This document shows positions 7,805 through 64,000 of a stretch of 64,000 nucleotides of DNA, in pieces. The stretch spans positions 62,001 to 126,000 of the forward strand of contig NZ_JXMS01000004.1 in the NCBI RefSeq assembly GCF_001672295.1, in the 5' to 3' direction. How positions within the stretch are numbered: position 1 is the stretch's first letter; each line of letters opens with the position of its first letter. A model generated the notes under the pieces. The model was not told the origin of the DNA. It searched no databases and saw only the letters and a program-made list of their open reading frames with translations. Both the position numbers and the translations under genes were made by a program. This stretch comes from Halodesulfovibrio spirochaetisodalis (lineage in GTDB: Bacteria; Desulfobacterota; Desulfovibrionia; Desulfovibrionales; Desulfovibrionaceae).

Positions 7805-8166
7805 GGAGTTGGACAGGTTATCGCCGCGCACATTAGTGCGGGGAGGAAAGTCCGGGCTCTAAAGGGCAGAGCGCTGGGTAACACCCAGGGGGAGTGATCT
7901 CCGGAGAGTGCCACAGAAAGCAAACCGCCTAAGCAGCTTGCTGCCGGTAAGGTTGAAACGGTGAGGTAAGAGCTCACCAGGTACCATGGTGACATGGTAG
8001 GCTAGGTAAACCCCGTTCAGAGCAAGACCAAATAGGAAAACAGTTACGACCGGCCCGGTCGTTGTTTTCGGGTAGGTTGCTTGAGGTTATGAGTAATCAT
8101 AACCCTAGACGAATGATAACCGCCCTCGCAAGAGGGAGACAAAACCCGGCTTATAGTCCTGACTCC
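7805..8166 (+). ncRNA. rnpB: RNase P RNA, type A
   Basis: The ends pair as helix P1 (GGAGTTGGAC with GTCCTGACTCC). Conserved blocks are present in order: GAGGAAAGTCCGGGCTC near the 5' end (P4 5' half), ACAGAAA, AGACGAATGATAACCGCC, and ACAAAACCCGGCTTATAG near the 3' end. About 362 nucleotides, normal for bacterial type A. It is the catalytic RNA that removes 5' leaders from pre-tRNAs, including the tRNAs at both ends of this window. Confidence 0.95.
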
Positions 8167-8175
8167 ATATTTTTG

Positions 8176-43605: not shown

Positions 43606-43635
43606 ACGCTGCCAAAAAGAAATGCAGGCTGCATT
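43606..43635 (-). terminator. Candidate riboswitch terminator before ribB
   Basis: Read leftward: AATGCA, 3-base loop GCC, TGCATT, then TCTTTTT. It sits immediately downstream of the FMN aptamer (3' side) and would end transcription when FMN is bound. Confidence 0.45.
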
Positions 43636-43770
43636 TACTCTCTTCCATCCGGACTGTCACCGTCGGCTCTGGAATTACACCAGATCTGCTGACCTTCAAA
43701 ATGAAGCGCTCGCGGGCTTTCCTAAAGAGGATTTACCGCCGGTAGGGAATTACACCCTGCCCTGAGAATA
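43636..43770 (-). promoter_or_regulatory. FMN riboswitch (RFN element)
   Basis: Read on the minus strand it starts TTCTCAGGGCAGGGTG and contains the conserved segments AATTCCCTACCGGCGGT, the AAAGCCCGCGAGCGC block, GGTGTAATTCCAGAGCCGAC and GACAGTCCGGATGGAAGAGA. These are the standard arms of the RFN aptamer. It lies about 110 bases before ribB, and the short hairpin plus T-run between (43606-43635) may be the expression platform. Confidence 0.95.
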
Positions 43771-43842
43771 AATTCGCGTTACAAAAATGGCTATACGGTT
43801 CCGCGTGTTCTGTCAACAGAACCGTATGCATTTCGATAAATT

Positions 43843-62636: not shown

Positions 62637-63446
62637 ATGACTGAACTTTATTCCGCTGTTATTCTTGGCATTATCGAAGGTTTGACAGAATTCCTTCCTG
62701 TATCTTCTTCCGGTCATCTCATCATCGCCGGACACCTTCTTGACTACACCGGCCCAAAAGCGGCTGTTTTTGAAGTGTTCATCCAGCTAGGCGCTATCCT
62801 TGCTGTTGTAGTCCTCTATCTTAACAGATTTTTAGGATTACTGAAGAACACACCGGAAATCCCGTTCTCCGGCATTCGCGGGCTCTGGATGCTTTTTCTT
62901 ACCTCACTGCCAGCCAGTATTTTAGGGCTTCTTCTGGCAGGGTACATTAAAACATACCTGTTCAACCCCATTACCGTATCCTTTGCTTTAGGCATTGGTG
63001 CGATATTTATTTTATGTGTTGAAAAGTATGCGCCATCACACGATACCGATAAAGCAACCTTTCATTCTCTGGATGACATGACGCCAAAGCTTGCGCTCGG
63101 CATCGGCTGTTTTCAGTGTCTTGCCCTGTGGCCGGGTTTTTCCCGCTCCGCCGCAACAATAATGGGTGGTATGCTCTTAGGCGCGCGCCGCACTCTTGCC
63201 GCTGAATATTCATTTCTGGCAGCAGTACCTATCATGTTTGCAGCAACCGGATACGACATGCTGAAACATTATCAACTGTTTACTACTGCCGATCTTCCCT
63301 TTTTTACTGTAGGATTCGTAGTCTCATTCATCTCCGCCCTTATTGCAGTAAAAACCTTTATCACTCTTGTGGGTAAGATGACGTTTAAACCATTCGCTTG
63401 GTACAGACTTATTGTTGCACCGTTAGTATACTTTTTCTGGACATAG
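62637..63446 (+). CDS. uppP: Undecaprenyl-diphosphatase
   Basis: 269 residues with about eight helices. The two active-site motifs are clear: GIIEGLTEFLPVSSSGHLII (12-31) and PGFSRSAATIMGGMLLGARR (about 169-188). It recycles undecaprenyl pyrophosphate in cell-wall and O-antigen synthesis and confers bacitracin resistance (BacA). No strong ribosome-binding site is visible. It is the last protein gene before the tRNA array. Confidence 0.9.
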   Translation: MTELYSAVILGIIEGLTEFLPVSSSGHLIIAGHLLDYTGPKAAVFEVFIQLGAILAVVVLYLNRFLGLLKNTPEIPFSGIRGLWMLFLTSLPASILGLLLAGYIKTYLFNPITVSFALGIGAIFILCVEKYAPSHDTDKATFHSLDDMTPKLALGIGCFQCLALWPGFSRSAATIMGGMLLGARRTLAAEYSFLAAVPIMFAATGYDMLKHYQLFTTADLPFFTVGFVVSFISALIAVKTFITLVGKMTFKPFAWYRLIVAPLVYFFWT

Positions 63447-63512: not shown

Positions 63513-63548
63513 CTCTCCCGTCGCAACGAAGTGTGACGCACAAGAGAT

Positions 63549-63625
63549 GGCGAGGTAGCTCAGTTGGTTAGAGCATGCGGCTCATATCCGCAGTGTCGGG
63601 GGTTCAATTCCCTCCCTCGCTACCA
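63549..63625 (+). tRNA. tRNA-Met (CAU), copy 1 of a tandem array
   Basis: Seven-base acceptor GGCGAGG with CCTCGCT (first pair G.U), D arm GCTC/GAGC, anticodon stem TGCGG/CCGCA with loop CTCATAT, T arm GGGGG-TTCAATT-CCCTC, encoded CCA. It is not the initiator. The G4:C69, A5:U68 pairs and the TCATAT loop fit elongator tRNA-Met, unlike the other CAU tRNA at 865-940. Confidence 0.95.
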
Positions 63626-63661
63626 TCTTATTACACACTTTAGGCCGACCACATACTTGAT

Positions 63662-63738
63662 GGCGAGGTAGCTCAGTTGGTTAGAGCATGCGGCTCATAT
63701 CCGCAGTGTCGGGGGTTCAATTCCCTCCCTCGCTACCA
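63662..63738 (+). tRNA. tRNA-Met (CAU), copy 2 of a tandem array
   Basis: Identical to copy 1 including encoded CCA; separated from it by a 36-base spacer that recurs after each copy. Confidence 0.95.
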
Positions 63739-63774
63739 TCTTATTACACACTTTAGGCCGACCACATACTTGAT

Positions 63775-63851
63775 GGCGAGGTAGCTCAGTTGGTTAGAGC
63801 ATGCGGCTCATATCCGCAGTGTCGGGGGTTCAATTCCCTCCCTCGCTACCA
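63775..63851 (+). tRNA. tRNA-Met (CAU), copy 3 of a tandem array
   Basis: Identical to copies 1 and 2 in tRNA and in both spacers. Confidence 0.95.
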
Positions 63852-63887
63852 TCTTATTACACACTTTAGGCCGACCACATACTTGAT

Positions 63888-63964
63888 GGCGAGGTAGCTC
63901 AGTTGGTTAGAGCATGCGGCTCATATCCGCAGTGTCGGGGGTTCAATTCCCTCCCTCGCTACCA
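63888..63964 (+). tRNA. tRNA-Met (CAU), copy 4 of a tandem array
   Basis: Identical to the others. The window ends at the last base of its spacer, so more copies may follow. Confidence 0.95.
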
Positions 63965-64000
63965 TCTTATTACACACTTTAGGCCGACCACATACTTGAT

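Follow-up and report, generated by a model that had tools for sequence, protein, structure and literature searches.

The window analyzed here is a stretch of 64,000 nucleotides from Halodesulfovibrio spirochaetisodalis (C34:62001–126000, on a contig of 184,990 bp), whose draft genome (G000) comprises 3.61 Mb in 59 contigs. At its right end there is a tandem array of tRNA-Met genes, located downstream of an ORF that we take to belong to the uppP (bacA) family and oriented in the same direction. The features of the locus are as follows:

62637–63446, + strand: ORF for a 269-aa protein, presumably a uppP (bacA) homologue; this upstream neighbour is kept in nine of nine genus mates, with 68–92% identity
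63484–63512, + strand: candidate promoter (TTGCAT - 17 nt - TAAACA), recognized by eye, with a putative function
63549–63625, + strand: tRNA-Met(CAT) copy 1, assigned to the elongator type by elimination (ARAGORN, RF00005)
63626–63661, + strand: spacer 1, 36 nt
63662–63738, + strand: tRNA-Met copy 2 (ARAGORN, RF00005); a second copy is present in the relatives too
63739–63774, + strand: spacer 2, equal to spacer 1
63775–63851, + strand: tRNA-Met copy 3 (ARAGORN, RF00005), belonging to the private excess according to the genus comparison
63852–63887, + strand: spacer 3, identical
63888–63964, + strand: tRNA-Met copy 4 (ARAGORN, RF00005)
63965–64000, + strand: spacer 4, identical, up to the window edge
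L011:2001–2231, beyond the window: tRNA-Met copies 5 and 6, followed by the terminator

The repeat unit of the array consists of a 77-nt tRNA gene and a 36-nt spacer. Tandem Repeats Finder reported a period of 113 with 100% matches and 0% indels at 63546–64000, and each of the four tRNA-Met(CAT) genes located by ARAGORN within the window scored 67.3 bits against RF00005. Spacers 1–4 were identical, the fourth one stopping at base 64000. The initial annotation had described four perfect 113-bp units reaching the window edge, and this description was borne out; its wording of "at least four" copies was also correct, since the contig carries six. The whole array contains six tRNAs and five identical spacers, with copy 6 reaching 190 bp past the window; beyond it the sequence changes and contains a strong terminator hairpin (-21.9 kcal/mol, z -7.9). 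A seventh identical tRNA-Met gene was found alone on contig C1. At least two intact tRNA genes of the same type thus lie head to tail, as in chromosomal tandem tRNA operons of the metZWV/argVYZQ type. A leader, conserved by eye, precedes the array, and the hairpin terminator lies at its other end. The candidate promoter stretch was nearly unchanged by eye across six tRNA-rich genomes of the genus (TTGCAA in G002), and a scan with a consensus promoter gave no match on the array strand at the leader. Spacer 1 contained neither a promoter or terminator match nor a stable fold, and no N was present in the window. Elsewhere in the window, an FMN riboswitch (43633–43773, - strand) and a class A RNase P RNA (7805–8170, + strand) were detected.

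The array tRNA was identified as elongator Met by elimination, in agreement with the initial annotation. Its overall similarity does not decide its identity (53/77 with metU and 55/77 with ileX). Initiator tRNA-Met is encoded by separate genes, which start with CGCGGGG and have a GGG/CCC anticodon stem. At 865–940 the window has another CAT tRNA, called Met by ARAGORN, which contains the pairs C4–G69 and C5–G68, as E. coli ileX does. We take these pairs to be a mark of tRNA-Ile2 and, because they are shared with ileX, the gene at 865–940 is probably a tRNA-Ile2. A tandem array of tRNA-Ile2 or initiator genes was ruled out in the same way, given the separate initiator genes and the occurrence of the ileX-type pairs elsewhere.

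The initial annotation had proposed comparing the locus in related genomes. This was carried out with nine genus mates (G001–G009) in addition to G000; the genus includes Halodesulfovibrio, and G002 is Halodesulfovibrio sp. MAG N3. In all nine, uppP was followed by exactly two tRNA-Met genes in the same orientation. The two genes were separated by 144–166 nt in G003, G004, G006, and G007 (UppP 68–72% identical), and these spacers hold, as judged by eye, a terminator-like hairpin and a promoter-like sequence. In G001, G002, G005, G008, and G009 (UppP 90–92%), the spacer was of 23–44 nt and lacked a terminator, and the leader was in common with that of G000. Spacers varied between species except for a shared end near TTGAT. 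The excess over two copies was therefore private to G000 among the ten genomes of the genus. Since all nine genus mates have two copies, sequence comparison identifies two copies as the ancestral state, six having been seen only in G000; eight of these nine relatives are drafts, so that their arrays could be collapsed, and G006 consists of one contig. A two-gene tRNA-Met operon at this site is thus genuine and unremarkable, resembling E. coli metZWV in build. Perfect unit repeats at this site of G000, with none at the same site of the relatives, correspond to the pattern of a recent amplification by unequal recombination, and in this respect the earlier argument from identical spacers to a recent origin holds.

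The conserved uppP neighbour in all nine genus mates, together with the single isotype, led us to reject a mobile or phage-like tRNA array. tRNA array units, which have been argued to spread horizontally, contain at least 20 tRNAs of many isotypes (Tran et al., 2016, as cited in an excerpt of PMC5966550). The array shares with them, as far as that excerpt describes them, the dense clustering of tRNA genes, but its six tRNAs belong to one isotype and occupy a single conserved site of the chromosome.

Among the closest known counterparts are the tandem tRNA operons of E. coli. metZWV of E. coli K-12 consists of three identical 77-nt tRNA-Met genes with 33-nt spacers, in units of 110 bp; in contrast to the array, it encodes the initiator, has three copies, belongs to a finished genome, and its spacers are 93.9% identical and not perfect. 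In argVYZQ and glyVXY, identical tRNAs also lie head to tail, but spacer identity within these arrays ranges from 0.29 to 0.96, with none perfect among those examined. This range covers eight arrays in three finished E. coli genomes, with 15 comparisons made between their spacers (metZWV 0.939, glyVXY 0.917); tyrTV, with one spacer only, gave no comparison. Of the 60 listed among 5375 matched genomes, H29 and H41 were examined, picked for shorter matches. A further likeness is the uppP/tRNA-Met site of the genus mates themselves, with the same neighbour, orientation, and tRNA in nine of nine, although these have two copies and G000 has six. No report of the array was found among the papers listed on Halodesulfovibrio and tRNA, on Desulfovibrio/aestuarii genomes, or on assembly errors at tRNA genes, including the excerpt of PMC9174804.

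The Met array was not the only exact repeat in the draft. G000 contains 113 tRNA genes, and 15 of its 30 consecutive same-type tRNA triplets, at eight places, had spacers that matched base for base (Met 4, Phe 4, Ser 2, Asn 2, Pro 1, Val 1, and Arg 1). The extra spacer bases showed 0 differences in 2213. The other half of the triplets was unrepeated, even where identical tRNAs are joined by short loops (Gly 87 and 45, Lys 136 and 142). In G005, none of 13 same-type triplets had equal spacers (38 loci, with 92 tRNAs by ARAGORN versus 93 Rfam matches), nor did any of ten in G009 (13 loci examined, which hold 54 of its 91 Rfam matches); the one-contig genome G006 has no same-type triplet and provides no control. 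When the 15 extra copies were subtracted, G000 equalled G005 in six of seven families, and its total became 98. The collapsed counts, G000 first and G005 second, were:

Met site: 2 and 2
Phe: 2 and 2
Ser: 3 and 3
Asn: 4 and 4
Pro: 6 and 6
Val: 4 and 4
Arg: 8 and 6

The Phe array has six copies in G000, two in eight relatives, and one in G002. It lies at L012:3376–4181 (G000:C57) and is built of six perfect 146-bp units. A promoter-like TTGCAA-17-TAGATA can be read by eye in every 70-nt spacer, and the array raises the same real-or-assembled question as the Met array. The Ser spacer is 154 nt long, and the Asn spacers measure 307 and 252 nt. Over the eight places, the product of loop number and unit length had a mean of 721 bp with a CV of 0.20, and loop number was inversely related to unit length (rank correlation -0.87, n=8); this relation includes only runs of two or more and rests heavily on the Met, Phe, and Ser arrays. 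Spacers that were related but unequal occurred in G005 (identity 0.86–0.96) and in the Arg array of G000 (0.96–0.99), suggesting from their sequences that duplication and divergence are ongoing in the group. A single N was located at L017:3064 (G000:C25), at the edge of a 21-nt spacer of a nine-copy tRNA-Arg(ACG) array, and a second single N, in the Pro region, lies in a hairpin at a distance from the tRNAs. The tips of contigs C21 and C25 fall inside a common 224-bp Thr-Tyr tRNA stretch (99.6% identical); among the 28 of 118 contig ends examined, several more stop in rRNA, and 18 matched none of the stretches compared.

These results leave an assembly cause as slightly the leading explanation, ahead of real amplification, because exact repeats occur at eight tRNA places of one draft, their collapse returns the numbers of G005, and a tRNA repeat lies at two contig ends. 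On balance, copies 3–6 were probably made by unrolling of an assembly loop, the real locus being a two-gene operon. In the initial annotation, an assembly product had come up only in closing; its anatomy and its argument for recency stand, and the higher tRNA-Met dosage and the copy-number variation between strains that it raised are hypothetical. The real locus would then have one promoter, two identical 77-nt tRNAs separated by a 36-nt spacer, and one terminator, and the usual RNases would presumably process its transcript into mature tRNAs. Two identical tRNAs would form a loop (tRNA–spacer–tRNA) in the graph of a short-read assembly, and the assembler or a gap closer may have circled this loop several times, giving six printed copies; a loop product near 721 bp would be expected if unrolling ends at the size of a fragment or gap, although this product leans on three arrays. 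Exact extra loops at unrelated loci were found at eight places in G000 versus 0/13 in G005 and 0/10 in G009, the latter with one exact repeat of a 1223-bp unit. The spacers of finished E. coli arrays (0.29–0.96), never perfect in those examined, count for an artefact, as does the N at the spacer edge of the G000 Arg array. Exact equality at eight places of one draft, with 0/2213 differences, calls either for one shared technical origin or for many events in quick succession. Against the loop explanation, 15 of the 30 triplets were not exact, including the short Gly and Lys loops, whereas every loop between identical tRNAs would be expected to be affected. In addition, reads or k-mers well above 77 bases in length resolve a two-copy array of 190 bp, so that an artefact needs a short k or gap filling. 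The window has no N, and the second single N is distant from tRNAs. The two-copy state of the relatives is itself drawn from eight possibly collapsed drafts out of nine, and the related, unequal spacers of G005 and of the G000 Arg array point to real duplication.

Real recent amplification, in which unequal recombination between the two ancestral tRNA-Met genes gave six, with similar events at seven other tRNA places, is a reasonable though less probable alternative; tRNA dosage would be raised, and one promoter would give a six-tRNA transcript. Unequal crossing-over in an array of two copies would yield just this arrangement, with n tRNAs and n-1 identical spacers flanked by an unchanged leader and a terminator. 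Two repeats of G009 indicate that recent duplication may be real in the group: a pair of 606-bp Asn spacers with two differences, hard to obtain by loop copying, and a 1223-bp unit carrying tRNAs for Asp and Val, repeated exactly in tandem (G009:C4:341500–346800, L244), a repeat missing in the G005 counterpart. G009 is a draft too, and runs of 390 and 270 N interrupt its arrays for Gly and initiator Met. The related, unequal spacers of G005 speak for amplification as well, and so does the gain of tRNA genes by tandem duplication in laboratory evolution of Pseudomonas fluorescens, although the duplications given in the excerpt of that report were of 45–290 kb (PMC7661048). However, expansions at eight places in one lineage, none with a difference, would be needed, and neither Met nor Phe exceeds two tandem copies in the nine relatives. 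Gene numbers are also high for use (7 Met and 6 Phe genes for 2.8% and 4.2% of residues), and the rank correlation between tRNA copies and amino-acid use was 0.24 as printed and 0.45 after collapse (mechanically picked ORFs, window plus 80 kb). That all eight exact expansions are real seems rather unlikely; unequal recombination would then have amplified the arrays for Met, Phe, Ser, Asn, Pro, Val, and Arg in a very short burst, on a background already rich in tRNAs, and the genome would be caught while its tRNA dosage rises. Direct repeats of 113 bp without a mismatch would be expected to grow and shrink, and this favours an unstable copy number, with a culture mixing array lengths of which the assembly printed one. 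All nine relatives have two copies, though, and argVYZQ spacers differ among the three finished E. coli strains, yet each keeps four tRNA-Arg genes; we consider such a mixture very improbable.

The genus contains tRNA-rich genomes (113, 93, 91, 89, and 83 tRNA genes, and 66 in the MAG G002) and tRNA-poor ones (59, 57, and 56, and 53 in the 86%-complete G003). G005 has 92 genes with 35 anticodons and G006 has 59 genes with 41 anticodons; Lys-CTT, Gly-CCC, Pro-CGG, and Val-CAC are present in G006 and absent from G000 and G005. The G+C content of the tRNA-poor group, in stretches of 8–12.5 kb, was 0.52–0.62 versus 0.43–0.47 in the rich one, and it may explain part of the difference. A search of 24 genomes of the order gave 38–78 tRNAs (132 or fewer candidates scored in each), and a count over 199 genomes of the order, with 23 candidates scored per genome, was set aside. 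Codon bias of ribosomal proteins as a test of growth rate was also set aside, its values not being comparable (8–12 ORFs in G004, G006, and G007 versus 16–18 in G000, G005, and G009). Counts of rRNA operons are likewise not comparable (six in the one-contig G006, three in G000, one in G008, and none found in seven drafts).

Predictions of growth rate and codon adaptation make use of tRNA gene counts. Should the extra copies stem from assembly, draft genomes would show too many tRNA genes at tandem arrays, and adjacent spacers that match exactly would be an easy sign to watch for. Should they be real, the lineage would represent a natural case of rapid tRNA gene amplification at many loci, a process known otherwise from large duplications during laboratory evolution, as in the excerpted PMC7661048. 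Either way, the occurrence of tRNA-rich and tRNA-poor genomes within the group provides a useful contrast on why tRNA gene numbers change.
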